Assembly (NCBI GenBank): GCA_016931955.1
Contig: JAFGDV010000028.1
Span: forward strand, 1 to 25,656
DNA from: Candidatus Altarchaeota archaeon
Lineage (GTDB): Archaea; Altiarchaeota; Altiarchaeia; IMC4; QMZM01
Length of the DNA stretch: 25,656 nucleotides
Direction of reading: 5' to 3'
Part shown: positions 6,932-25,597 of the stretch, in pieces
How positions within the stretch are numbered: the first letter of the stretch is position 1
How the letters are laid out: every line of letters begins with the position of its first letter
Program-made: the position numbers and the translations under genes
Notes under the pieces: generated by a model
Seen by the model: the letters and a program-made list of their open reading frames with translations, nothing else
Told to the model about the DNA's origin: nothing
The model's database searches: none

Positions 6932-8218
6932 TCAAGACCTGCCAACGCCTCTATAGATGATCCCATATTTTTCAACTACTTCCTTGTTCACAACATTTCT
7001 GCCGTCGACGAAGACCTTCACGCCCTTATCCTTCAGTTCCGCGAAGTCTAGGTCCCTGTATTCCCGGTGATTTGTCGCCAGGACTACCGCATCCAGCGAA
7101 CTGGGATTCTGGAGGTCTGAGAACATGGCCCCGAAGCCCTCGATCTCCTCCTTGGAGAACAATGAGTCATGGACGAATACATTCGCCCCAGACTTCTTCA
7201 GATTTTTTATTAATGCTATCGCTGGGCTCATGAAGGTCTCCTTTACGTTGCCTCTATAAGCTAAGCCGAGGATGAGGACATTCTTTTTCTTGAACGAACC
7301 CAGTTCCTTTTTGAGTATGCTTACTGTGAACTTCGGCATGCCGTCGTTTATCTTCCTCGCCTTCTTTGCGATGCTTAAATCGATGCCGACATCAGCAGCA
7401 TTCTTTATTAAGAAATGGGGGTACACCGGCGCACAATGACCTCCGACCCCCACTCCTGGGAGGAGGATGCGCGAAAACGGGTTCGAGTTAGCCGCTTCTA
7501 TTATCTCGACTACGTCAAGTCCTCGTGCATCGCAGAATTGGGCGAATTCATTGGCTACTGCAATATTTATGTCTCTGTAGACCATGTCGAAGAGCTTCGC
7601 CGCTTCGGCTGCTTCGCAGCTTGATACTGGGATGACTTTGGAGTCGAGAACCTTCCCATAGAATTCAACACCCCTCCTTGTTGATTCCTCATTTATTCCT
7701 CCGACGAGTTTCGGTATGTTGCGGAGATAGTCGAACATTACCCCAGAGGAAACCCTCTCCGGGCTGAAAACTAGATGAAAGTCTATCCCCACCTTGAGGC
7801 CTGACTTCTCCAGGATAGGTGCCATCCTGTTCCTGGTGTCGCCTACAGGTAGGGTTGTCTCGTAGACTACTAGAGAATTTTTCTGGAGGCCTTTTGCTAC
7901 TGTCTCAGTTACTGAGTCGACTATGCAATAGTCTATGTTTCCTTTCTTATCAACTACGAGAGGGACTATGATAACTACAACATCCGACCTCTTTACTGCT
8001 TCTACGGTATCGGTTGTTGCAGAAAGAAGACCCATAACTACTGCAGCCTTGACTTTCTCTCCTAAGCCCGGTTCTTCTTTTATATGGGATACGCCCCTAT
8101 TTATTGATTCCACGACGTCCTTGTTTACGTCACAGCCAATAACCTGAAAGCCCTTACTAGCGTATTGCGCAGCCAAGGGTAACCCGATCTTGCCTAAACC
8201 GATTACACATACCCTCAT
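6932..8218 (-). CDS. wbpA: UDP-GlcNAc/ManNAc 6-dehydrogenase (WbpA/WecC-like)
   Basis: A 428-residue UDP-sugar dehydrogenase that oxidises C6 of a UDP-HexNAc to the uronic acid with 2 NAD+. It has N-terminal GLGKIG (7-12) for NAD binding, FSPER (151-155), and GVGVGGHCAP with the catalytic Cys262, plus a C-terminal UDP-binding domain ending near 425. It is the last gene of the operon wbpD-wbpE-wbpB-wbpA and its ATG overlaps the preceding stop (ATGA, 8215-8218). With those partners the natural product is UDP-GlcNAc-uronic acid, the first step toward diacetamido-uronic acid. The stop faces the GT-C-like gene with only 5 bases between. UDP-ManNAc dehydrogenase (WecC) remains possible by sequence alone. 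Confidence 0.88.
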   Translation of the reverse strand: MRVCVIGLGKIGLPLAAQYASKGFQVIGCDVNKDVVESINRGVSHIKEEPGLGEKVKAAVVMGLLSATTDTVEAVKRSDVVVIIVPLVVDKKGNIDYCIVDSVTETVAKGLQKNSLVVYETTLPVGDTRNRMAPILEKSGLKVGIDFHLVFSPERVSSGVMFDYLRNIPKLVGGINEESTRRGVEFYGKVLDSKVIPVSSCEAAEAAKLFDMVYRDINIAVANEFAQFCDARGLDVVEIIEAANSNPFSRILLPGVGVGGHCAPVYPHFLIKNAADVGIDLSIAKKARKINDGMPKFTVSILKKELGSFKKKNVLILGLAYRGNVKETFMSPAIALIKNLKKSGANVFVHDSLFSKEEIEGFGAMFSDLQNPSSLDAVVLATNHREYRDLDFAELKDKGVKVFVDGRNVVNKEVVEKYGIIYRGVGRS

Positions 8219-9216
8219 AGAGAAATCACCTGCTTTTTTTCCGTCGACTCAATCAGTTTTTGCGCTAAAACCAATGCCTTTAGGCCGTCTTCCCCAGATA
8301 CAAGGGGTTCTTTGCCGTTCCCGACCGCATCGACCCAGGATTCCAGCTCAGCCTTTAGAGGCTCTTTCTTCTGGATCCTGATCTGCATTATGTTCCCCTC
8401 AGCCACGCCCATGAGTATGTCGGAGTAACTGTATTTTCCGTTTATGGCTTCAACGTTCTCGTAGAAGTACAGTTCTTGGGTCAGATACTTCACGACGAAC
8501 ATGCCCTTCTCCCCGATAATGGATATCTCCCTTATCTTTTCAGGGGTCAGCCAGTTAACCGATAAAACCCCTATGGTGTCGTTCTGGAACTTCAACAATC
8601 CAGAGAGTAGGTCCTCGTACTTTGTGTGGATCTTACGCTCTGTCTCGGCATAAAGCCTCTTCACATCGGAATTTGTCAGGTAACGCATGATGTCGATGTC
8701 GTGCACTGCAAGGTCTATGACAACACCAACATCCCTTATCCTACTAGGAAAAGGACCGACACGTATCGCCTTTATTTCGAATATCCTCCCCAATTCATCC
8801 CTGTCCAGCCTCCTTTTTAATTCTATGACAGCCGGGTTAAAGCGCTCAATATGCCCCACCGTGACCTTCACTTTGTTTTTCTCTGCGCTATCTATTATGG
8901 CTCTCGCATTATCCTCAGAATCAGCTATCGGCTTTTCGACCAGTGAGGGAATACCCCTCCTGGTGCACTCCAAAGCCACCTCACGATGATACTTTGTTGG
9001 AACAGCTATTGACAAAAGATCTATGTCCTCTTTATCTAACATCTCCTTGTAGTCTTTGTATGGATTACACCTTAGGGATTCTGCAACGTCCTTCGCGCTA
9101 TTGAAGGCCGCATCCGATACCGCTACGAGGTCAGTACTATCCAATTCAGCATAGATCCTAGCATGGTTTCTCCCCATGGAACCGACTCCGATAACCGCCG
9201 CTTTAAGCTTCCCCAT
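8215..9216 (-). CDS. wbpB: Gfo/Idh/MocA oxidoreductase, UDP-GlcNAcA 3-dehydrogenase (WbpB-like)
   Basis: A 333-residue NAD-dependent oxidoreductase with N-terminal AAVIGVGSMGRNH (Rossmann) and the family signature EKP (94-96), with the downstream IDLAVHDIDIMRYL stretch that shapes the active site. In the Pseudomonas O-antigen pathway WbpB oxidises C3 of UDP-GlcNAc-uronate and is paired with the aminotransferase WbpE; here the same two genes are adjacent (1 base apart). The other members of the set flank it, so the assignment rests on both sequence and context. Overlap with the downstream dehydrogenase is 4 bases. Confidence 0.85.
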   Translation of the reverse strand: MGKLKAAVIGVGSMGRNHARIYAELDSTDLVAVSDAAFNSAKDVAESLRCNPYKDYKEMLDKEDIDLLSIAVPTKYHREVALECTRRGIPSLVEKPIADSEDNARAIIDSAEKNKVKVTVGHIERFNPAVIELKRRLDRDELGRIFEIKAIRVGPFPSRIRDVGVVIDLAVHDIDIMRYLTNSDVKRLYAETERKIHTKYEDLLSGLLKFQNDTIGVLSVNWLTPEKIREISIIGEKGMFVVKYLTQELYFYENVEAINGKYSYSDILMGVAEGNIMQIRIQKKEPLKAELESWVDAVGNGKEPLVSGEDGLKALVLAQKLIESTEKKQVISL

Positions 9217-11007: not shown

Positions 11008-12210
11008 ATGAGGATATTGCAGACGGCAAGGTGGTTCTTCCCCCACGTCGGAGGAGCAAGCGTAAGAGTCTACCAGACAGCGAAAAATCTCGTAGATAAA
11101 GGCCACGAAGTCCACCTATTGGTACACAACCCAAAGTCGATAGAGCAATGCAATCTATCACAAGAAGTGCCAAACTATGAAGAATATGATGGAATACATG
11201 TCTACAGGATGCCATATTTTGCGCCAAAACAGGTCTACTGGGCTGCAACGATCCCCTTAATGGCAAAAAAAGCAATCAACATCATCAAGAAAGAAAAAAT
11301 CGACGTCATTCTCTCACATAATCCGCCCTACCTAGTCGGTATGTCCTCCTGGATAGCCAGCAAGTTTACTGGAGTGCCATTAACCCTTAATGTCCATGAT
11401 GTTTGGGGAGCTCCGCATTACAAAAAATACGAGTACATGATCGGTAAATCCCTCGAAAGATTCTGCTGTAACAGAGCCAAACGGATCATAACAGTGTCCG
11501 AGGGCTTATCCGAGGTCCTGGCAAATGAGACGGGTGTGGATAGGGATAAAGTAACGGCAGCACCGAATGGTGTCGACATTGAAAGATTTAGGATAGAAAG
11601 AGAAGAGACTGACAAACTGAAGGAGAAATACGACCTCTCAGGTAAAAAGGTTGTTTTTTTCGTGGGAATACTCCGAACATGGGCAGGCATACAGTTTCTG
11701 ATAAAGGCATTCCCGAAGGTTCTCGAAAAACAGCCAGAAAGTGTGCTCTTTATTGTAGGCGACGGGGGAGACAGGAAATACCTTGAAAGTTTAGTTGATG
11801 AATTAGAGATCCGAGAGAATACAGTCTTCACTGGATCTGTTCCCTACAGCGATGTTCCATCTTTCATCGATCTGGCGGATGTGTGCGTCGCCCCTTTTCC
11901 CTCGACAAAGGTGACTGACAGCAGAAAACTCATGTCACCCCATAAAGTCCTTGAATACATGGCTGCAGAGAAAGCCGTCATTGCAAGCAGGGTGGGGGGA
12001 ATGGAAAACTATGTCGAAGAAGGGGAAACCGGTTTTTTAGTTGAACCTGAGGATATCAGCGATCTAGCAAATAAGATAATAGCTCTATTGGAAGATCCGA
12101 ACATGAGAGAAAGATTCGGGAGAAAGGGCAGAGAGCATGTGGCAGAGAAACATGCTTGGACTAATTATGTAGGGATTGTGGAAAAAACCCTGGAGGATGT
12201 ATTAACATGA
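11008..12210 (+). CDS. GT4 family glycosyltransferase
   Basis: A 400-residue GT-B-fold retaining glycosyltransferase. The N-terminal domain opens with QTARWFFPHVGGASVRV (about 5-21), the glycine-rich acceptor loop. The C-terminal domain has PNGVDIERF and an E-x7-E-type donor motif in the region EYMAAEKAVIASRVGGMENYVEEGETGFLVEP. No signal peptide is seen, so it acts in the cytoplasm or at the inner membrane face. It is the first gene of a plus-strand operon with the 2-epimerase (ATGA overlap at 12207) and an amidotransferase. It may add the diacetamido-uronic acid or another sugar to the lipid-linked glycan; donor not determinable. Confidence 0.88.
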   Translation: MRILQTARWFFPHVGGASVRVYQTAKNLVDKGHEVHLLVHNPKSIEQCNLSQEVPNYEEYDGIHVYRMPYFAPKQVYWAATIPLMAKKAINIIKKEKIDVILSHNPPYLVGMSSWIASKFTGVPLTLNVHDVWGAPHYKKYEYMIGKSLERFCCNRAKRIITVSEGLSEVLANETGVDRDKVTAAPNGVDIERFRIEREETDKLKEKYDLSGKKVVFFVGILRTWAGIQFLIKAFPKVLEKQPESVLFIVGDGGDRKYLESLVDELEIRENTVFTGSVPYSDVPSFIDLADVCVAPFPSTKVTDSRKLMSPHKVLEYMAAEKAVIASRVGGMENYVEEGETGFLVEPEDISDLANKIIALLEDPNMRERFGRKGREHVAEKHAWTNYVGIVEKTLEDVLT

Positions 12211-13298
12211 AACTCTCCATAGTGGTCGGGACGCGGCCGCAGCTGATAAAGATAAGCCCGCTCATAAGGAGGATAGAAAAAGAGAGAGACATAAGACTGC
12301 AGTTCATCGATACTGGACAACACTACGACTATGAGCTGAACAAGACCTTCTACGATGAATTACGTCTGCCTGCATCAGAATTCTTAGACATCGGTTCAGG
12401 AACTCCTGGAGAGCAGACCGGTAATGCATTGATTGCAGTTGAAAGAGAGATTATAAAATTCAATCCAGATCTCGCACTAGTTATTGGGGATACTAATTCA
12501 GCCCTTGCAGGAGCCCTTGCTGCGGTAAAACAGAAGATCCCTGTAGGGCATATTGAAGCCGGTCTGAGGAGCTTTGACAGGAGGATGCCTGAGGAGATTA
12601 ATAGGATCATAGTCGACCACGTCTCAGATCATCTTTTCGCGCCCACAAAAAACGCAGTTAACAACCTAATGCGGGAGGGGATACCAAAGGATAAAATCTT
12701 CTTCACCCACGACATTACTGTAGACGCATGCCTGGAAAACTACGAGATTGCGAAAGAAAAATCCAAGATATTAGAGAAACTGAACATTAACCCAAGGGAC
12801 TATGTCTTAGTGACCGCCCACAGACAGGAGAACGTCGATGATAAAAGGAATCTGGAGAAATTGGTCAATGCATTAACGAAGCTCGAAAAGCCAACAATAT
12901 TCCCAGTGCATCCGAGGACACTGAAGAACATGAAGGCATTCAGCCTCTTGGAGAAGCTGGGAAAGAACTGCACATTAACCAAGCCTCTGGGCTACTTCGA
13001 CTTCTTGATGTTGCTTAAGAATGCGGCATGCGTTGTCACGGACTCTGGGGGCGTACAGAAGGAGGCTCTTATCCTGAAGACACCATGTGTTACCATTAGA
13101 ACAACAACGGAGTGGCCAGAAACGATAAAACTTAATGCAAATGTTCTTGTTGGCCTTGACGGGAAAAGGATTATCAATGAGGTCAATAGGAGATCTAATA
13201 ATGAATTCCACAGAGCTATGGAGGACATAAAGAGCCCATATGGTGAAGGAAAAACAAGTGAGAGTATATTAGATGCTATATTAGGACTCCAACAGTGA
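12207..13298 (+). CDS. wbpI: Non-hydrolysing UDP-N-acetylglucosamine 2-epimerase family (WbpI/WecB-like)
   Basis: A 363-residue GT-B-fold epimerase with VVGTRPQLIKISPL (6-19), DTGQHYDYELNKTF, the conserved GHIEAGLRS and DRRMPEEINR, VTAHRQEN and VTDSGGVQKEA. These are the hallmarks of the non-hydrolysing UDP-GlcNAc 2-epimerase family. With WbpA, B, E and D types encoded divergently upstream, the best fit is WbpI, which inverts C2 of UDP-2,3-diacetamido-glucuronic acid to the mannuronic form. If it is instead WecB, the neighbouring dehydrogenase would give UDP-ManNAc-uronate. It overlaps the GT4 stop by 4 bases and lies 3 bases before the amidotransferase. Confidence 0.85.
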   Translation: MKLSIVVGTRPQLIKISPLIRRIEKERDIRLQFIDTGQHYDYELNKTFYDELRLPASEFLDIGSGTPGEQTGNALIAVEREIIKFNPDLALVIGDTNSALAGALAAVKQKIPVGHIEAGLRSFDRRMPEEINRIIVDHVSDHLFAPTKNAVNNLMREGIPKDKIFFTHDITVDACLENYEIAKEKSKILEKLNINPRDYVLVTAHRQENVDDKRNLEKLVNALTKLEKPTIFPVHPRTLKNMKAFSLLEKLGKNCTLTKPLGYFDFLMLLKNAACVVTDSGGVQKEALILKTPCVTIRTTTEWPETIKLNANVLVGLDGKRIINEVNRRSNNEFHRAMEDIKSPYGEGKTSESILDAILGLQQ

Positions 13299-15214: not shown

Positions 15215-16837
15215 ATGCCCAAGGAAACAGCTGGTGATGAATTTCTCAGAAGCGTAAAGAATTTCTCCCACACACCCATCGAAGACGGTAGAGACCTGAG
15301 GGATATCCTTGAATATGATGGTTTCTCTCTCTGGTGGTTCATAGAACCGTACCTTTATAATAGAGTGCTTGAGGTCATGAAGGGGGAATCAAACCTGCTT
15401 ATCAGCTACATCCGCTCCGGCAGCAAATACTGGATATTCGTAAAATTCGTCGTCCGATGCCTTCTTGGAAAAATTCTACGACCCCTTCACTTAAGAAGGC
15501 CGCCTTGTGTCCTTGTCATAAGTTCTGCCCTCAATTGGAGAAATAGCAATGATCCGCAATCAGGCAAGAAAAAGAAGGACATAATGTTAGGGGATGTCAT
15601 CGCTACACTAAAACAAATTGGTCATAGTGTAATAACCTTGGACCAGGTCACGACCAGTTCAGGTGATATGAAAAGCGTGATAGAAAAAAACTGCGAAGAT
15701 CTCGGAACATGGATACCTGCAGAAGCCTATCTATCACCAAGCATTTTTTTGAAGACCCTCAGGACTGCTCAGAGACTTAAGACCCTTTTATATGAGCTAA
15801 AGAAGAATAGGAAGTTTGTTGAAGCGCTAAGATCCAATGGGCGTTTGTTGTTCGAGGATATAGAAGAAGACCTGAATCTGTGTTTCAGATATCACCTCCC
15901 TAAAGACGCACTATATTTCGAGATGATGAAAAAGGCAGTGGACGTAGAAAAGCCGGACATTATAGTAGTAACCTGCGAATATGGTTCTCTTGGTCTGGCT
16001 GCCATAATGGCCGGAAGAACAAGGGGAATACCCACGCTAGCCCTGCAGCATGGAGTTATCCACCCAAAGCATTTCGCCTACGTGCATGCCGCTGACGAGG
16101 TCTCTGAGGATATATCACCACGATTCTACCCTCTCCCTGACAAGACAGCAGTCTATGGAACCTATGACAAACATGTCCTTACAGAAATCAACGCATACCC
16201 TGAAAGCAGCATAGTCGTCACTGGCCAGCCCAGATACGACATACTTGCACATGCCTCATCTACTTTCAGTAGAGAAACAACGATAAAAAAAATCGGTCTC
16301 AACCCAGACAAGAAACTCATGTTGTGGACGACGCAATCACATGGGTTGACAATAGAGGAAAACCGACGGTCATTTTTTGAGGTCTACCGGACAATAAATG
16401 AGCTGTCAGAAAGAGTGCAACTGGTGATAAAACTCCACCCAGGAGAGACAGACTACCGCATGCACAAGAGCATTGCGGATGAAGTCGGCATATCTCCGGT
16501 AATCACTAAAGACATCGACATCTACGAAATCATTCATGCCTGCGACCTGATGATAACAAAAGCCTCTACCACTGGACTGGAAGCCATCGCATTAAATAAG
16601 CCAGTCATAATCCTGAACTTTGGCGGCGAACCAGATATCTTCGACTACGTTAAGGAGGGTGTGGCTGCAGGAGTCTACAGAGAAAACGAGCTGAAGGCGA
16701 CAATCGAAAGACTGCTGGAAGATGACTCCAAGCTTGCAAAAAACAGGGGCGCATACATAGAGAAACACTTGTACAGGATAGACGGCAAAGCCACGGAGAG
16801 AGTAGTCGACCTCATACGCAAGATGATCAAATCTTAG
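15215..16837 (+). CDS. Surface-carbohydrate GT-B-fold protein (capsule/KpsS- or LIC13510-like)
   Basis: A 540-residue protein without signal peptide. The N-terminal part has DGFSLWWFIEPYLYNR (about 47-62), a motif seen in surface carbohydrate biosynthesis proteins. The C-terminal half has QHG (278-280), KLHPGE (406-411) and KASTTGLEAIALNKPVIILN, the nucleotide-sugar half of a GT-B fold as in capsule Kdo-transferases, CDP-glycerol transferases and polysialyltransferase-like proteins. It sits between the diacetamido-uronate genes and the nonulosonic acid operon, so transfer of the CMP-nonulosonic acid is an attractive guess. Its stop overlaps the stop of the convergent TIM-barrel gene by 11 bases. 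Exact activity unknown. Confidence 0.6.
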   Translation: MPKETAGDEFLRSVKNFSHTPIEDGRDLRDILEYDGFSLWWFIEPYLYNRVLEVMKGESNLLISYIRSGSKYWIFVKFVVRCLLGKILRPLHLRRPPCVLVISSALNWRNSNDPQSGKKKKDIMLGDVIATLKQIGHSVITLDQVTTSSGDMKSVIEKNCEDLGTWIPAEAYLSPSIFLKTLRTAQRLKTLLYELKKNRKFVEALRSNGRLLFEDIEEDLNLCFRYHLPKDALYFEMMKKAVDVEKPDIIVVTCEYGSLGLAAIMAGRTRGIPTLALQHGVIHPKHFAYVHAADEVSEDISPRFYPLPDKTAVYGTYDKHVLTEINAYPESSIVVTGQPRYDILAHASSTFSRETTIKKIGLNPDKKLMLWTTQSHGLTIEENRRSFFEVYRTINELSERVQLVIKLHPGETDYRMHKSIADEVGISPVITKDIDIYEIIHACDLMITKASTTGLEAIALNKPVIILNFGGEPDIFDYVKEGVAAGVYRENELKATIERLLEDDSKLAKNRGAYIEKHLYRIDGKATERVVDLIRKMIKS

Positions 16838-17588
16838 AGCCGTTGCCAAAGATATTGGCCACATACTCGACGTTCTTTATGTCCTCAGCAAGGCCGTTTC
16901 TACGTGGAGTCTCCAATGTCACACGAGGCCTGTCCATAGAAAGAAGACATTTTGCTATGTATTCTAAGTCAAAATTGCCGTCCCCAAGAGACTTGTGGTC
17001 GTCTACCTCCTTATTAGTGTCGCCGTCGCTCAGATGGAACATCGCCGGCTTAAGGTCAAGGAAGCTCCCGATAACCTCCATATAGGGTCTTCTCATGCTA
17101 ATGGATGCTTTATACGCGTGACCGAAATCCAAGCAGAATCCTATATTGAACCTATCAAGCAGGACAGCAAAATCATGGGGGTCATAGTACAGACAATCCC
17201 CACCGTGAATGCCTGCCTTCGGCATATTCTCGAGGATGACCCTGTCCAATTCTATGCTACTGAGTATGTCTTCGGCCGCCTCCCTGCTACCGTACTCCGC
17301 ATGCAGGATGACGTACGGAGAATGAAACCTTCTCGCAATCTGGAGGGAGACATCAATCATCTCAAGGTTGAAGTTCCTCTTGCTCGGATCGCCGATATTA
17401 ACCCCCAGATTCGAGTGCGGCGCATGTATTATGTAGTCACTCCTCGGAAGCTTCAAAACATCATCCACGTGTCCGGGCACAACCAGCAATTCAAAGTAGT
17501 CGACTATTTTCCTTACTTCTTCTGGAAGCTCATCTATCAGAGCCACATCATCCGACCTGAACTTCAGACCTAAACATATTTTTTTCAT
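16827..17588 (-). CDS. Endonuclease IV-like/xylose isomerase-like TIM-barrel metalloprotein
   Basis: A 253-residue AP-endonuclease-2 superfamily barrel. Candidate metal ligands fall in the same order as the nine trinuclear zinc ligands of endonuclease IV: His55 (HAPH), His96 (LHAEYG), Glu120 (VILENMP), Asp154 and His157 (LDFGH), His185 (FHLSDGD), Asp196 and His198 (DDHKSLGDG), Glu226 (TLETP). Sugar isomerases of the fold usually keep only part of this set. It lacks the typical N terminus of DNA-repair endonuclease IV. It is the last gene of the nonulosonic acid operon, overlapping the GNAT gene start region by 4 bases. It may be a sugar epimerase or a phosphoester/pyrophosphate-cleaving enzyme; the operon lacks PseG, whose job it could do. 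That is a hypothesis. Confidence 0.7.
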   Translation of the reverse strand: MKKICLGLKFRSDDVALIDELPEEVRKIVDYFELLVVPGHVDDVLKLPRSDYIIHAPHSNLGVNIGDPSKRNFNLEMIDVSLQIARRFHSPYVILHAEYGSREAAEDILSSIELDRVILENMPKAGIHGGDCLYYDPHDFAVLLDRFNIGFCLDFGHAYKASISMRRPYMEVIGSFLDLKPAMFHLSDGDTNKEVDDHKSLGDGNFDLEYIAKCLLSMDRPRVTLETPRRNGLAEDIKNVEYVANIFGNGSKI

Positions 17589-18076
17589 ATCTCATGCCTT
17601 CTTAGCACCATCAAGACGATTTGTGAGTCAGAACCGGCTTCCTTGAAGCTTGCATCATGGAAGGCATTAATCGATGCTTTGTTAAACTTCTTTATCCTCG
17701 CCCTCAGACAACGCAGAGATTCTCTCTCGTTGAAGAAACGCTCGCATGCCTTCCTCAGAGCAATCGACCCCAGACCTTTGCCCCTCCATGCAGGTGCTAT
17801 AGTCACGTTAATCTCCGCTTCGCTATCATCGTCCATTATATCAAAACGAACCTGGCCGACTCTCTCCTCACCGACCATGATCATCATTAAAACCCTTTTT
17901 TTGCTGACCAAAACGCCATCGAACCATCTACTATGCTCTTCAGCGCTTATCTTGTGACTGCTGAATGAATACTTTCGCGTTTCAGGGTCATTTCTCCACT
18001 CTAGTAGGATTTCACAGTCAGATTTCTGTGCAGGCCGCAGTGTTATCTCCTCTCCACTTATGACAGCATGCTCCAT
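17585..18076 (-). CDS. pseH: GNAT N-acetyltransferase, PseH-like
   Basis: A 163-residue GCN5-related acetyltransferase. ITLRPAQKSDCEILLEWRNDPETR is the start seen in RimJ/L- and PseH-type enzymes, and APAWRGKGLGSIALR (about 113-127) is the acetyl-CoA pyrophosphate loop. PseH acetylates the 4-amino group made by PseC, giving the 2,4-diacetamido-trideoxy sugar. PseC lies four genes upstream in the same operon, and the gene overlaps the synthase gene by about 19 bases. The start ATG at 18076 follows directly from the reading frame; no clear ribosome site is seen. Symbol given on context plus family. Confidence 0.7.
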   Translation of the reverse strand: MEHAVISGEEITLRPAQKSDCEILLEWRNDPETRKYSFSSHKISAEEHSRWFDGVLVSKKRVLMMIMVGEERVGQVRFDIMDDDSEAEINVTIAPAWRGKGLGSIALRKACERFFNERESLRCLRARIKKFNKASINAFHDASFKEAGSDSQIVLMVLRRHEI

Positions 18077-19113
18077 GTTATCCCCTCACCCGCCCTTATG
18101 TCGCGCTTAGCCTTCTTTCCCCAGATTTTCTCAATATGCTTCGGCTCAAGGCCGGGCCTGTTCTTGCCGCTTCGCAGGACTGCAACGTTCTTGGACAACA
18201 ATTGTTCGCCTCTTTTTATATCCTTTGTCGCATGGATCCTACGCTTAGCGAAATCGTATAGCTCTCTCTCGACATCTTCGACCTTTTTCCTGCCAGAACC
18301 AAGCGCTTCCTCGACCATACGGATCTTCTTTACCATGTCCGCAAGCTCGTGAGGCTCCAAGGAGAACCTATGATCCGGTCCTAAAAGGTCGTTGTCAAGT
18401 GTGAAGTGTTTCTCTAGGATGTTCGCACCAAGGGCTACTGCCGCAAGCGGTGCTACAAGAGGCTCCCTTGAATGGTCGGATAATCCCACTGGGATCCTGA
18501 ACTTCCGCTTCATCGACACTATGACACGTAGATTCATCGAACTTTGCGGGGCAGGATACTTTGCAGTGCACTGAGTAAGACAGACCTTCCTGTTGCCCGT
18601 AGAGTAAACAGCATCAAGCGACTCCACCACCTCGGAGAGGGTGCTCGCACCAGTTGATATTATCATCGGTTTATTTTTTCTGGCAACGTATTTCAGCAGA
18701 GGAATATGGCTTACCTCATAGGAGGCTATCTTATGTGCAAGAACATATTCATCCAGTCTATCCACTGATTCTTCATCGAAGACACTGACCAAAAAAAAGA
18801 CCCCTTTTTTCTCACAGTAGCCTGCAAGCTTTTCAATCCAGTTGTAAGGCATCTCAAGACCTTTTATTATCTCGCCTATCTGCTTCCTTGTGCCTAGATA
18901 GTCTGAGTTCCCCGCACCCTTGGAGTACAACTTCTCAGACCTGAACAGTTGGAACTTGACTGCGTCGGCTTTAGATTTGACTGCTACGTCTATAAGCTTC
19001 TTTGCCTGCGCCAAGCTGCCATCGTGATTAGACCCTGCTTCAGCGATGATAAAACACGGCTCGCCGTCGCCAATCAACCTATCTCCAATCCGTATCTTTC
19101 TCATATTATCCAT
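18058..19113 (-). CDS. NeuB/PseI-family nonulosonic acid synthase (first copy)
   Basis: About 351 residues from the ATG at 19113, chosen because a GGAGGT lies 4 bases upstream (19118-19123); a TTG at 19125 is less likely. It condenses phosphoenolpyruvate with a six-carbon amino sugar. The TIM-barrel starts FIIAEAGSNHDGSLAQAKKL, with DAVKFQ, VGLSDHS and the metal/catalytic EKHFTLD. A C-terminal SAF (antifreeze-like) domain contains RPGLEPKHIEK, keeping the Arg that in bacterial sialic acid synthase reaches across the dimer to the N-acetyl group. It lies in the operon between the CMP-sugar synthetase and the GNAT gene, so PseI is the expected role, though the sequence also resembles NeuB/LegI. 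Confidence 0.88.
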   Translation of the reverse strand: MDNMRKIRIGDRLIGDGEPCFIIAEAGSNHDGSLAQAKKLIDVAVKSKADAVKFQLFRSEKLYSKGAGNSDYLGTRKQIGEIIKGLEMPYNWIEKLAGYCEKKGVFFLVSVFDEESVDRLDEYVLAHKIASYEVSHIPLLKYVARKNKPMIISTGASTLSEVVESLDAVYSTGNRKVCLTQCTAKYPAPQSSMNLRVIVSMKRKFRIPVGLSDHSREPLVAPLAAVALGANILEKHFTLDNDLLGPDHRFSLEPHELADMVKKIRMVEEALGSGRKKVEDVERELYDFAKRRIHATKDIKRGEQLLSKNVAVLRSGKNRPGLEPKHIEKIWGKKAKRDIRAGEGITWSMLS

Positions 19114-19117
19114 TAAA

Positions 19118-19123
19118 ACCTCC
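19118..19123 (-). promoter_or_regulatory. Strong Shine-Dalgarno site of the first NeuB-family gene
   Basis: GGAGGT on the minus strand, 4 bases before the ATG at 19113. It decides the start of this gene and is stronger than the sites of its neighbours, fitting the 86-base gap from the previous stop: this internal gene is not translationally coupled. Confidence 0.7.
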
Positions 19124-19199
19124 AAGTCCTTGCAGATGAGGATCCTTCAACCGCCAGATATGTCCAAGAACCCCTCTAGGATATACCCAAACAACCATC

Positions 19200-19883
19200 T
19201 TAGCTTTTCCCCCCAGTCCTTGCCAGCAGCCACTCAACGATCTCAAAATCCTCAAGCTCGTCGATGTCGATGGACTCATTCGACCCCATCACCAGGAAGC
19301 CGACTTTGCCACCAGTTAACTCGCCTTTTTCCATCAACAAATCCCTTGTGCAGACATACAAGGCTCCATTCTCCTTTAGGAGAGGCTTGGACAATTGGCG
19401 GTTATTTATGCTTTTAGGGTAGAAGCGAATGTATCTGCCGTTGCTCTCAGCCCAGTAATGCCCTCGGTCTGGAACGACGCTAACAACAGAATCGAAGCCG
19501 CCTGAGGTAAGGAGGCTCACACCTTCGGAGATCCGCGAAGACGAAAGTAGAGGAGAAGTCGCATACAAGAGGACGACAATATCAGGATTATAATCCTCTT
19601 TCTCCTCCAGATATCCCACCGCATGCTGAAGAACTGGCAACGTCGGAGTCTCGTCGCTGGCAAGAGCTGCGGGGCGGATGAAAGGCACTTCTGCACCATA
19701 CTTATTCGCGACCCCAACGATCTCTTCATCTTCCGTTGAGACGATGACCCTGTCAATCCCTTCCGCTGCAAGGGCTGATTCTATAGCGTACGCAATAAGG
19801 GGCTTATCCGATAGAAGCTTCAAGTTCTTCCGCGGGATTCCCTTGGAACCCCCACGCGCCGGAATTATTGCAATGACTTTCAT
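19200..19883 (-). CDS. CMP-nonulosonic acid synthetase (NeuA/PseF family)
   Basis: About 227 residues from ATG at 19883, which lies 5 bases after the preceding stop; a TTG at 19892 would overlap it. IAIIPARGGSKGIPRKNLK is the signature CTP-binding start of acylneuraminate cytidylyltransferases. IVSTEDEEI and VVLLYATSPLLSSS follow the family, and DSVVSVVPDRGHYW fits the sugar-binding part. It activates the nine-carbon acid as a CMP-sugar for transfer. It is the only CMP-sugar synthetase in the window although there are two NeuB-family synthases. In this operon it most likely serves as PseF. Confidence 0.88.
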   Translation of the reverse strand: MKVIAIIPARGGSKGIPRKNLKLLSDKPLIAYAIESALAAEGIDRVIVSTEDEEIVGVANKYGAEVPFIRPAALASDETPTLPVLQHAVGYLEEKEDYNPDIVVLLYATSPLLSSSRISEGVSLLTSGGFDSVVSVVPDRGHYWAESNGRYIRFYPKSINNRQLSKPLLKENGALYVCTRDLLMEKGELTGGKVGFLVMGSNESIDIDELEDFEIVEWLLARTGGKS

Positions 19884-19888
19884 CGGAT

Positions 19889-20533
19889 TCAACCTTTCTT
19901 CAGCAGATACATGACGTCTCTGTTATCGTTATTCGTGTATTTCATGACCTTCTTCTTGAGAAGCTTTGCATCTGGGAACCGATCAAGGAAAAGCTTTGGG
20001 AAGTCGGTCTTCCACAATAGATCATCCTTGCCGCGGTAGTTTATCATCTCATATCCCTTCTCCGAATAATACTCAAAACCCCCTATATATGAGGCTGCGC
20101 AGCGGTGAATCTCATCCAACGCCTTATTTATGTCGCTCGGAGAGATGTGTATCAGGACGCCTGCAGTGAAAACCATGTCGAAGAAGTCGTCTTTGAACGG
20201 CAGATCGAACGCTGACCCCAAGACTATGTTCAACCCACTAGTCCTCTTCCGAGCTACCTCAACCGCGTAGCTCTGAATCTCGACACCCCACAAATTGGAA
20301 TAACCCATGGTCTTGAGTAAGTCCAACTGATTCCCGACGTTGCACCCGACCTCGAGAATCCTGTCGTACTTCTCCAGAACACCATCAAGGAACTCTTTGT
20401 TCAGGGAAGTCCTTGAAATGCCATAGTTCCCTTCATAGAGGCTATCCAGTTCAGCCGGGGCCAAAAGATTCCTGTCCGTGTAATCTTTGCCGAATTCGCC
20501 CGACCATACCTCTTCCTGCTTCGTCTTAGCCAT
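19889..20533 (-). CDS. Pseudaminic acid biosynthesis-associated methylase
   Basis: A 214-residue class I methyltransferase. The N-terminal EVWSGEFGKDYTDRN is characteristic of the methylase family found with pseudaminic acid genes. SAM motif I is ILEVGCNVGNQ (about 59-69), LWGVEIQSYAV follows, and the acidic end of the core is FDMVFTAGVLIHI. It lies between pseC and the CMP-sugar synthetase, 6 bases after pseC, and almost touches the next start. It probably methylates an intermediate or the N-acyl/hydroxyl group of the nonulosonic acid; the exact position is not known for the family as far as I can say. Confidence 0.8.
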   Translation of the reverse strand: MAKTKQEEVWSGEFGKDYTDRNLLAPAELDSLYEGNYGISRTSLNKEFLDGVLEKYDRILEVGCNVGNQLDLLKTMGYSNLWGVEIQSYAVEVARKRTSGLNIVLGSAFDLPFKDDFFDMVFTAGVLIHISPSDINKALDEIHRCAASYIGGFEYYSEKGYEMINYRGKDDLLWKTDFPKLFLDRFPDAKLLKKKVMKYTNNDNRDVMYLLKKG

Positions 20534-21674: not shown

Positions 21675-22076
21675 CTATTCAAACCGGTAGATGAAGGTGT
21701 CTGATGGATCCTCTAAGCCATCGCTGAAAACGACGAGACTTGCACTTTTTTGCCTGCTTGGATTCTTCACAAGATGCGCCACCCCCGGGGGTATCAGGTA
21801 GACTGCATATTCGTCAGATTCCGAGTCCATGACAATCTTCTCCCTCATCCTGCAACCCACATCTTCTAACGTCAGCTCGATCCTGCCGCTTGCCAAGCAA
21901 AGCCACTCCTTCTTCTTTCTATGGAAATGACCGGCCCTACTATGCTCCGGCTCGATATTCACGAGATAGCTGTGGATAAAATCATGAGGCTCATCAGCGT
22001 AAGCTTTTGATACAAGCTCCACCAGCCAGCCGTCTTCCCTCACATGCTTCTCTCGGATCAGTTTCTCGCCCAGCAT
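21675..22076 (-). CDS. Small cupin-fold sugar-modifying protein
   Basis: About 133 residues from the ATG at 22076, just behind the pseB stop; a TTG at 22082 overlaps that stop. A single RmlC-like cupin: AGHFHRKKKEWLCLASGRIEL carries the H-x-H metal-binding pair and downstream Glu of cupin motif 1, and YLIPPGVAHLVKN is motif 2. Relatives include the cupin half of CapF, WxcM-like proteins and FdtA-type ketoisomerases, which act on nucleotide-linked keto sugars. Standard pseudaminic acid synthesis has no cupin step, so its place between pseB and pseC suggests action on the 4-keto intermediate, or a regulator of flux. Function unassigned. Confidence 0.7.
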   Translation of the reverse strand: MLGEKLIREKHVREDGWLVELVSKAYADEPHDFIHSYLVNIEPEHSRAGHFHRKKKEWLCLASGRIELTLEDVGCRMREKIVMDSESDEYAVYLIPPGVAHLVKNPSRQKSASLVVFSDGLEDPSDTFIYRFE

Positions 22077-22078
22077 TT

Positions 22079-23062
22079 TCAATCCTGAGCCTTTTCAGCC
22101 ATCTTTTTCAGCTCCACGCCAGTAAGCCACTGATCGTTAGCGTCGCTAGCGTACCTGAACCCTTCAGGCAGGCGCTTACCGGACGTCATATGCTCGTCGC
22201 TCCAGAAAGGATGCTCTGGATCTATGACAAAATAATCATCGAACTCCCTCGAGTGCCTCGACTCATCCTCTGTGAGAAGGATCTCGTGAAGCTTTTCTCC
22301 AGGGCGGATGCCTATCACCCTCCTTTTCGCCTTAGGCGCAATAGCGTCCGCAAGATCAGTTATCCTCATACTCGGTATTTTTGGGATGAATACCTCACCA
22401 CCCTTCATCCTCCCAATGCAGGACATGACGAACTCAACACCCTGCTCAAGGGTGATCCAGAACCGCGTCATCCGCTCATCGGTCAAAGTGATCTCTCCCT
22501 TCTCCCTCTGCTTCAAGAAAAGAGGGATAACGCTGCCTCGGCTACCGACGACATTGCCGTAGCGGACGCAGGAAAGCTTCGTCTTCTTCCCCCCAGAAGC
22601 GTAAGAATTGCCTTGGACGAACAATTTTTCGGCCACCATCTTGGTCGACCCATACAGGTTGACGGGGTGCACTGCTTTGTCTGTGCTGATAGCAAGAACC
22701 CTGTCGACGGCGTTATCAATAGCAGCGTCTATGACGTTGACTGAACCTTCGATGTTAGTCCTCACGGCTTCGATGGGGTTGTACTCACACGCAGGCACCT
22801 GCTTTAAGGCAGCCGCATGCACTACGATGTCTACGTTGTTCATCGCCCGAGAAAGCCTCACCCTGTCCCGGACATCGCCGATCAGGAAACGAAGCCGAGG
22901 ATCATCGAACTTGTTTTCCATCTCATACTGCATCAACTCGCCGCGGGAATATATGCGAACACTATCAGGCTTATGCTTCCTCAACAAGATTTCAGTGAAT
23001 TTCTGACCGAAAGACCCCGTACCCCCAGTAACCAATATCGTTTTTTCGTCAAAAATCGACAT
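22079..23062 (-). CDS. pseB: UDP-GlcNAc 4,6-dehydratase, inverting (PseB)
   Basis: A 327-residue extended SDR. KTILVTGGTGSFGQKF (8-23) binds NADP. The active site reads STDKAVHPVNLYGSTK, with the Asp-Lys pair and Tyr typical of the soluble inverting dehydratase PseB/FlaA1. It has no membrane segments, unlike the long retaining PglF/WbpM type. It removes water across C4-C6 of UDP-GlcNAc and inverts C5, the first step of pseudaminic acid synthesis. First gene of the eight-gene minus-strand operon, with AGGGTG (23068-23073) 5 bases before the ATG. Confidence 0.9.
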   Translation of the reverse strand: MSIFDEKTILVTGGTGSFGQKFTEILLRKHKPDSVRIYSRGELMQYEMENKFDDPRLRFLIGDVRDRVRLSRAMNNVDIVVHAAALKQVPACEYNPIEAVRTNIEGSVNVIDAAIDNAVDRVLAISTDKAVHPVNLYGSTKMVAEKLFVQGNSYASGGKKTKLSCVRYGNVVGSRGSVIPLFLKQREKGEITLTDERMTRFWITLEQGVEFVMSCIGRMKGGEVFIPKIPSMRITDLADAIAPKAKRRVIGIRPGEKLHEILLTEDESRHSREFDDYFVIDPEHPFWSDEHMTSGKRLPEGFRYASDANDQWLTGVELKKMAEKAQD

Positions 23063-23242: not shown

Positions 23243-24292
23243 ATGATAAGGCTGCGAACAAGAAACCTGACGCGAGATTCTCCGCCCTTTGTAATCGCTG
23301 AGATAGGCAACAACCACCAAGGAAGCCTGAAGAACGCCATAGAGCTTGTGAAGACCGCCAAGTTCTGCGGGGCCGACGCGGTCAAGTTCCAGAAGAGAAC
23401 TAACATTAAGCTTTACACAAAACACCTATACAATCAATTGTATGACAATCCAGACAGTTTCGGGGAAACATACGGAAAACATCGCGAGGCCTTGGAACTT
23501 TCACTGGATGAATTCATCGAACTAAAGAAGTATACAGAAGACCTAGGTCTCGAGTTCATGTGCACTGCCTTTGATTTTGATGCCGTCGATTTCCTTGAGG
23601 GCATAGGATTACACAGCTACAAGATAGCCTCAGGCGACCTGACTTCTCTACCATTAATCGAATACGTCGCCAAGCTGGGCAAACCCATATTCATTTCAAC
23701 GGGCGCCGCAACCTTGGAGGAGGTACACACCGCCTATAAGACGGTCCTGGAATACCACGACCAGATCTGCATAATGCAATGCACTGCTTCCTATCCCGCA
23801 GACTATGAGATCCTTAACCTCAACGTCATAAAAACATATCTCGAAGAATTCCCGGAGGCCATAATAGGGTACTCAGGACATGACACCGGCGTTTTAGCCA
23901 CCTCAATCGCTAGGATGCTCGGCGCCACGGTCTTCGAGAAACACTTTACCATGAACAGGGCTTGGAAGGGGACAGACCACAAGTTCAGCCTAGAGCCCCG
24001 TGGCCTGCAGGTAGTAGTAAGGGATCTGAAGAGAATCAGCCAAATACTTGGATCGCACGAAAAACAGACACTTGACGTGGAGAAAAACGCCAAGATCAAG
24101 ATGGGTAAAAGCATATATTATTCAAGAGACCTTAAGGCGGGAACGGTGCTCTCAGAAAGAGACATAAACATCAAATGCCCATTCAAGGAAGTGCCTGCTT
24201 CTGATTTCAAAAGATTCATAGGCAAGAAAATCCTGGTCGACGTTGAAGAAGACGATGCTCTGGAGTACTCTCACTTCAAAGGTTTATCATGA
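23243..24292 (+). CDS. NeuB-family sialic-acid-like synthase (second copy)
   Basis: A 349-residue PEP-condensing synthase. FVIAEIGNNHQGSLKNAIEL, DAVKFQKR, then FGETYGKHREALELS, IGYSGHDTG and EKHFTMNRAWKGTDH mark the NeuB barrel. The C-terminal SAF domain (about 290-347) lacks the Arg-Pro-Gly motif kept by the first copy, having CPFKEVPASDF there, so the substrate contact from the partner subunit must differ. It overlaps the HAD phosphatase gene by 4 bases. Together they suggest a route through a 9-phosphorylated sugar acid (Neu5Ac-9-P or KDN-9-P type), unlike the operon at 16827-23062. Exact substrate unknown. Confidence 0.85.
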   Translation: MIRLRTRNLTRDSPPFVIAEIGNNHQGSLKNAIELVKTAKFCGADAVKFQKRTNIKLYTKHLYNQLYDNPDSFGETYGKHREALELSLDEFIELKKYTEDLGLEFMCTAFDFDAVDFLEGIGLHSYKIASGDLTSLPLIEYVAKLGKPIFISTGAATLEEVHTAYKTVLEYHDQICIMQCTASYPADYEILNLNVIKTYLEEFPEAIIGYSGHDTGVLATSIARMLGATVFEKHFTMNRAWKGTDHKFSLEPRGLQVVVRDLKRISQILGSHEKQTLDVEKNAKIKMGKSIYYSRDLKAGTVLSERDINIKCPFKEVPASDFKRFIGKKILVDVEEDDALEYSHFKGLS

Positions 24293-24783
24293 AAGCAGAT
24301 TACCGAAAGATAAAGCTTTTTGCCATGGACTTCGACGGCGTATTGACAGACAACTTTGTCTACGTCAGCGACGAAGGAAGAGAATTCGTGAGATGCACTC
24401 GCGCAGACGGCATAGGGTTGCAGAAACTCAGAAGCCATGGGATCGAACTGCTTGTTCTCTCAACAGAAGAAAACTCTGTTGTATCCAAGAGATGTGAGAA
24501 ACTCAACCTAAAATATTTTCACGGAGTCAAAAACAAGGCCGACTTCTTGAGAGAATACATAGAGAAAAAAGGCATTAGACCAGAGAATGTGGCCTTTGTT
24601 GGAAACGACGAAAACGATCTGGATGTCCTGAAGATCGTTGGATTCCCATTCGTTGCGGGTGACTCTCATCCCAACGTGAAGAACGTAGCAAAATATGTGA
24701 CAAAAAAATCAGGCGGAACGGGCGCTGTAAGGGAAATATGCGATTTGATAGATGACTCCTTTGGGGGTGGGGTTGATGAGTAA
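24289..24783 (+). CDS. KdsC-like HAD phosphatase
   Basis: A 164-residue C0-type HAD phosphatase with motif I DFDGVLTD (nucleophile Asp14, acid Asp16), motif II Ser/Thr in VLSTEE, motif III Lys in VKNKADF and motif IV GNDENDLD, ending SGGTGAVREICDLI as in KdsC. KdsC removes phosphate from Kdo-8-P; homologues next to or fused with sialic-acid genes take phosphate from 9-phosphorylated nonulosonic acids. No KdsA-type synthase is present, and the 4-base overlap with the NeuB-family gene supports the 9-phosphate reading. Probably a tetramer, as others of the family. Confidence 0.87.
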   Translation: MKADYRKIKLFAMDFDGVLTDNFVYVSDEGREFVRCTRADGIGLQKLRSHGIELLVLSTEENSVVSKRCEKLNLKYFHGVKNKADFLREYIEKKGIRPENVAFVGNDENDLDVLKIVGFPFVAGDSHPNVKNVAKYVTKKSGGTGAVREICDLIDDSFGGGVDE

Positions 24784-25597
24784 ATACAAAAACACGCTCT
24801 TCGACCTCAGCGGGGAAATCGCTGTAGTAACAGGTGGGATGGGACAACTGGGTGCGCAGTTCTCTCTTGTATTGATGGATGCTGGCGCAAAAGTTGCTAT
24901 ACTAGACATCACAGACAAAACATTAAACAATAGGCTGAGAAAAGCAATTGATTCTGAAGAAATAATGCTCATAAAAGCGGACATCACAGACAAAAACGAG
25001 GTCAAGGATGTCGCCGAAAAAATCAAAAGAGAACTTGGCATCCCAACTATTTTGGTCAACAACGCCGCATTGGATTCTCCACCCAACGCTTCCGCAGAAG
25101 AAAACGGGCCCTTTGAGTCTTATCCAGAGGAGTCATGGGATAAGGTCTTGGATGTCAACCTGAAGGGGGTATTTCTTATGTCGCAGGTCTTCGGCGGGGA
25201 AATGGCGAAAAAAGGTAAAGGCAGCATCATAAACATTTCCTCTGTCTATGGCATGGTTTCACCGAACCAGAGGATATATGAGTACAGGCATCGGGGAGAT
25301 AAAAAATTCTATAAGCCCGTCGCCTACTCAGTCTCCAAGTCGGGGATATACAATTTCACAAGGTATCTCGCCACTTACTGGGCTAAGAAAAACGTTAGAG
25401 TAAACACCCTCACCCTCGGAGGGGTGTTCAATAACCAAGACAACCAGTTTCTGGAGAATTACTGCGGTATCGTGCCCAAAGGCAGGATGGCGAAAGAAGA
25501 TGAATACAACGGAGCTGTGTTGTTTCTTGCTTCTATTGCCTCAGAATACATGACAGGCTCTAACCTGGTCATAGACGGCGGCTGGACCATCATTTAA
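24776..25597 (+). CDS. SDR-family oxidoreductase of a nonulosonic acid cluster (PtmA-like)
   Basis: About 273 residues from the ATG at 24776, chosen because GGGGGTGGGG precedes it by a few bases and because the family's LFDLSG start follows; it overlaps the HAD stop by 8 bases. Classical short-chain dehydrogenase: TGGMGQLG (19-26) binds the cofactor, NNAALDS follows, the catalytic Ser is in INISSVYG, and Tyr and Lys are in AYSVSKSG. The end is MTGSNLVIDGGWTII. Such SDRs accompany legionaminic and sialic acid genes (PtmA of Campylobacter is one). The likely substrate is a hexose or hexosamine precursor. Co-transcribed with synthase and phosphatase; more genes probably follow past the window. 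Confidence 0.78.
   Translation: MSKYKNTLFDLSGEIAVVTGGMGQLGAQFSLVLMDAGAKVAILDITDKTLNNRLRKAIDSEEIMLIKADITDKNEVKDVAEKIKRELGIPTILVNNAALDSPPNASAEENGPFESYPEESWDKVLDVNLKGVFLMSQVFGGEMAKKGKGSIINISSVYGMVSPNQRIYEYRHRGDKKFYKPVAYSVSKSGIYNFTRYLATYWAKKNVRVNTLTLGGVFNNQDNQFLENYCGIVPKGRMAKEDEYNGAVLFLASIASEYMTGSNLVIDGGWTII

Follow-up and report, generated by a model that had tools for sequence, protein, structure and literature searches.

Organization of the locus

The stretch of DNA analysed (the window; 25,656 nucleotides) is contig C45 of an Altiarchaeota MAG. On its minus strand, an operon runs from 23062 to 16827 in the order PseB, cupin, PseC, Pse-type methylase, PseF-like, PseI/NeuB-like, PseH-like and a TIM barrel protein (hereafter the barrel). 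Its features are as follows.

22079..23062, minus strand: PseB, UDP-GlcNAc 4,6-dehydratase (inverting); TIGR03589, 499 bits, above cut-off
21675..22082, minus strand: cupin (FdtA/WbuC-like); FdtA 25 bits, WbuC 27 bits
20540..21682, minus strand: PseC aminotransferase; TIGR03588, 438 bits, above cut-off
19889..20533, minus strand: pseudaminic acid biosynthesis-associated methylase; TIGR03587, 185 bits, above cut-off
19200..19892, minus strand: PseF-like CMP-sugar synthetase; TIGR03584, 164 bits, below cut-off of 206
18058..19125, minus strand: PseI/NeuB-family nonulosonic acid synthase; PF03102, 270 bits; TIGR03569 (NeuB_NnaB), 335 bits, and TIGR03586 (PseI), 284 bits, both below cut-off
17585..18076, minus strand: PseH-like N-acetyltransferase (GNAT); best NCBIfam match TIGR03585 (PseH), 57 bits, below cut-off of 93
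16827..17588, minus strand: candidate PseG-replacing UDP-sugar hydrolase, endonuclease IV-like metal TIM barrel; PF01261 (59 bits), metal ligands, AF2 model and pse synteny in 15 operons

The sequence-only reading had described an operon with PseB, PseC, a PseH-like protein, a synthase and a CMP-synthetase, and this assignment held, with PseB and PseC scoring over the curated cut-offs and PseH, PseF and PseI under theirs. For PseI the curated cut-off is 340 bits, which was not reached by the window protein (284 bits) and was reached by those of loci L149, L171 and L043. The barrel ORF (253 aa, ATG start) occupies exactly 16827-17588, and its start overlaps the stop of the PseH-like gene in the ATGA at 17585-17588; the barrel was therefore taken as the last gene of the operon.

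In Altiarchaeota, the cupin gene is found next to PseB, or to a PseB-like gene, at three loci (window, 21675-22082, minus strand; L007, 4603-5013; L008, 9891-10286), and the L007 and L008 cupins are 55-57% identical to that of the window. A divergent second set on the plus strand (23243-25597), encoding a NeuB-family synthase, a HAD-type phosphatase and a short-chain dehydrogenase, may represent another route to nonulosonic acid. The WecB-like gene at 12207-13298 was considered as the hydrolase and rejected, as it scores as a non-hydrolysing 2-epimerase (373 bits against a cut-off of 210).

Family, metal ligands and predicted fold of the barrel

The window barrel matched PF01261 (AP_endonuc_2/xylose isomerase-like TIM barrel) with 59.3 bits, above the gathering cut-off of 31.1 bits; the L149 barrel matched with 43.3 bits. 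Scores against the curated deoxyribonuclease IV model (25.1 bits; cut-off 244) and the CbiR model NF041277 (23.2 bits; cut-off 105) fell below the cut-offs, and the window contig gave no match to the PseG family TIGR03590, so that the barrel is not a sequence member of that family. By profile alignment to solved endonuclease IVs, the metal-ligand positions are occupied by His55, His96, Glu120, Asp154, His157, His185, Asp196, His198 and Glu226, and these nine residues are invariant in the five Altiarchaeota copies, in a 14-sequence alignment and in 28 family members (the lone apparent gap at Glu226 among the 28 stems from L048, whose sequence was cut and reads LTLET there). The alignment and this conservation confirm the earlier description of a TIM barrel with residues at all nine endonuclease IV ligand positions. 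The AlphaFold2 model was confident (pLDDT 92.6) and its nearest folds were MJ1311 and endonuclease IV. Since MJ1311 seems to have the same nine ligands and M. jannaschii gives a match to the PseG model, the activity cannot be told from the nine ligands by themselves.

Distribution of PseG

In the genome of the window, nothing scored above the curated cut-off of TIGR03590. The single partial match (22 bits, contig C26) was rejected as a hidden PseG, as it sits in a 374-aa protein read from its sequence as a GT-B-like glycosyltransferase. At this cut-off, the lack of PseG noticed earlier in the window extends to the genome. PseG was above the cut-off in none of 29 genomes of the phylum Altiarchaeota and in none of 32 barrel genomes, most of which are incomplete MAGs; the 32 comprised 5 from Altiarchaeota, 12 of relatives from the alignment-based survey described below and 15 further Spirochaetota. 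PseB was above its cut-off in 8 of the 12 non-Altiarchaeota genomes of the first survey set. TIGR03590 does recover PseG (E<=1e-10) from Caulobacter and from other spirochaetes; Caulobacter FlmD and C. jejuni PseG share only 22% identity (PMC7591256). PseC was above its cut-off in 5 of the 29 Altiarchaeota genomes, four of which also encode the barrel; in the fifth (G007), PseC lies near a contig end.

A PseG gene elsewhere in the genome, or operons carrying both genes, had been named in the sequence-only reading as evidence against a replacement. No PseG over the cut-off was present in this genome or in the 29 of the phylum, and no operon or genome among the 32 with a barrel combined the two. 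In barrel genomes G060 and G328, a PseG-like stretch of 51-60 bits (53 bits in G328) was found inside a protein of about 820 aa, encoded at a locus other than that of the barrel. Loci L172 (5257-7731, 53 bits) and L173 (4942-7410, 60 bits) each encode a protein, 822-824 aa in length, that begins like a CMP-synthetase and contains a weakly PseG-like stretch.

Barrel relatives and pse operons

A scan of genome contigs with the barrel as single sequence gave no relative; the alignment-based scan gave 21, from Patescibacteria, Omnitrophota, Spirochaetota, Deferribacterota, Delongbacteria and a divergent Woesearchaeote. No relatives were found in plasmids or in viral contigs. The phage collection search returned L059 (MT838706.1), an unannotated faecal record of 4,958 bases labelled Bacteriophage sp., with a distant relative (27.5% identity) beside sugar-nucleotide genes. 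Deltaproteobacterial and Streptacidiphilus matches (L054-L058) were set aside as non-family, and the tree places L054, L055 and L058 outside. The barrel lies inside a pse operon in 15 cases, in five phyla of two domains (archaea and bacteria):

Altiarchaeota: window, L007, L008, L009
Patescibacteria: L042, L043, L052
Omnitrophota: L044, L050
Spirochaetota: L045, L049, L146, L149, L150
Delongbacteria: L048

The PseI of L043, a locus assigned to Patescibacteria, is 91% identical to Altiarchaeota PseI, and L043 may therefore have been transferred recently or belong to a wrongly binned contig.

The cleanest operon, L149 from a spirochaete, reads PseB-PseC-PseF-barrel-PseH-PseI, with scores above the cut-offs for PseB (535 bits), PseC (511 bits), PseF (290 bits) and PseI (511 bits) and a weak score for PseH (49 bits). 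Besides the five assigned Pse genes and the barrel, it holds an AbiEii-like gene and a small ORF, both between PseH and PseI. The L049 barrel is flanked by PseF and PseH. PseG is fused to PseH in the spirochaete operons L162, L163 and L164, adjoining or close to PseI, and in the plasmid operons L201 (Parabacteroides) and L202 (Klebsiella), beside PseI; in the spirochaete L165, PseG adjoins PseH. The barrel thus fills the slot that is taken in related operons by PseG, often in PseH-fused form. The survey of pse operons for barrel present and PseG absent that had been proposed from the sequence found this combination in five phyla, the barrel taking the position that PseG usually has.

In Deferribacterota genomes G034 and G038, a pse operon without PseG is present and the barrel lies elsewhere in the genome, next to a GlmS-like gene; at L047 and L051 of this phylum, the barrel (about 7990-8770) directly follows a GlmS-like gene, not pse genes. 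A formyltransferase domain is fused to a PseH-like acetyltransferase in L008 (989-2137) and lies beside one in L182 (6669-7229), and a gene of L183 (6834-7322) appears similar; the pairing of formyltransferase and PseH-like protein suggests N-formyl sugars.

PseI tree and spirochaete genomes

On a PseI tree of 25 loci, the barrel and PseG states required six changes, at least four of them on starred (well-supported) branches, and PseI of barrel operons was up to 69% identical to PseI of PseG operons. The spirochaete survey included 13 genomes with a curated PseI: four had the barrel, six had PseG (one of them at 151 bits, slightly below the cut-off), three had neither and none had both. Within Spirochaetota alone this non-overlap is weak (p 0.049), and it is therefore the operon position and the repeated swapping that carry the weight of the case. 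The three with neither gene over the cut-off are L161 (G220), L157 (G114) and G216:C12; G216 has a 68-bit PseG-like match near PseI, and these genomes may have a divergent PseG or solve the step in a third way. Because of these three, the absence of PseG alone does not imply that a barrel must be present. Of the 17 spirochaete genomes surveyed that have a barrel, 13 had no PseI over the cut-off. Spirochaete barrels are in many cases not located near pse genes, and the genomes concerned have only lower-scoring NeuB synthases; the family may for this reason act on more than one NDP-sugar.

Proposed function and alternative readings

The six steps PseB-C-H-G-I-F are necessary and sufficient for pseudaminic acid synthesis, and in E. 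coli they suffice (PMC7591256). Because these six activities suffice, UDP release is the step left without an enzyme in the barrel operons, and because the barrel sits in PseG's place in these PseG-less operons, it probably performs the PseG step by unrelated chemistry. From the gene patterns, the barrel is predicted, with a probability of about 0.75, to be a metal-dependent UDP-sugar hydrolase that stands in for PseG as its non-orthologous replacement. This prediction draws on sequence, ligands, predicted fold, operon position, PseG absence and swapping on the PseI tree; the proposal of such a replacement, made from the window alone, gains support at the genomic level from barrel-bearing pse operons that lack PseG, found across two domains and five phyla.

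The barrel would act at the fourth step of the pathway and free UDP from UDP-2,4-diacetamido-2,4,6-trideoxy-L-altrose; the freed sugar would then be condensed with phosphoenolpyruvate by PseI. Three divalent metals would be bound, and a metal-bound hydroxide would attack the phosphorus and break the P-O bond, as in endonuclease IV, yielding UDP and leaving the anomeric oxygen on the sugar. PseG cuts the C-O bond. It appears somewhat likelier than the contrary that UDP-sugar hydrolases exist in a second, unrelated form, namely this previously unnamed trinuclear-metal TIM barrel family, which breaks P-O and, with its unrelated fold, has repeatedly displaced PseG in archaea and bacteria. CbiR, of the same superfamily, hydrolyses a phosphodiester and is a precedent for new hydrolases in this fold (PMC7733943).

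Most PF01261 enzymes are sugar epimerases or isomerases, and the barrel might likewise alter one stereocentre and lead to a different nonulosonic acid, UDP being released by an unrecognised enzyme. Its fold is common to ketose 3-epimerases and isomerases (Z 20-22), and the window synthase scores higher as NeuB_NnaB than as PseI. The metal site of epimerases has four ligands, however, and the five that the barrel has beyond this set are invariant; moreover, PseI identity between the two operon types points to a shared substrate, and an epimerase would leave the hydrolase step of the minimal operon L149 without a gene. An epimerase is accordingly considered unlikely. A cut within the pyrophosphate is less probable still: the same metal centre could in principle attack either phosphorus, but the UMP and sugar 1-phosphate so formed would call for a general phosphatase to finish the reaction, and no conserved phosphatase gene accompanies the barrel, nor is there one in L149. 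It is very improbable that the barrel acts in DNA repair as an endonuclease IV and owes its operon position to chance, although superfamily and ligands are shared with that enzyme; its deoxyribonuclease IV score is roughly a tenth of the cut-off, and chance placement beside pse genes is ruled out by the 15 operons in five phyla.

If PseG replacement by the barrel is true, a missing step of nonulosonic acid synthesis is filled in lineages where PseG cannot be found, the AP_endonuc_2 fold gains a new reaction, and calling organisms pseudaminic acid-negative from the absence of PseG is unsafe. It would also be a clean and directly testable case of an unrelated enzyme replacing another with the rest of the pathway unchanged. 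Among the papers searched, none joined pseudaminic acid with AP endonuclease, MJ1311 with epimerase, or Altiarchaeum with pseudaminic.

Comparison with known systems

PseG/FlmD/RkpO (TIGR03590) occupies the same pathway slot as the barrel, either fused to PseH or as its neighbour, adjacent to PseI. PseG has a GT-B fold and cleaves C-O, whereas the barrel is a predicted TIM barrel with predicted metal-dependent P-O cleavage. With endonuclease IV (Nfo), the barrel shares nine aligned metal ligands and a fold match of Z up to 22.3; it differs in falling far below the deoxyribonuclease IV cut-offs, in its length of 253 aa, in its pse context and in an identity of about 16-21%. MJ1311 (3wqo, D-tagatose 3-epimerase-like) is the best solved-structure match in both sequence and fold (Z 23.7, 20% identity), and its nine ligand positions appear occupied; it is listed as uncharacterised, however, and M. 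jannaschii has a PseG-model match of its own. CbiR (NF041277), a cobamide-remodelling phosphodiesterase of the same superfamily, differs from the barrel in substrate and operon, and was likewise a new phosphodiester hydrolase found through its gene neighbourhood (PMC7733943).
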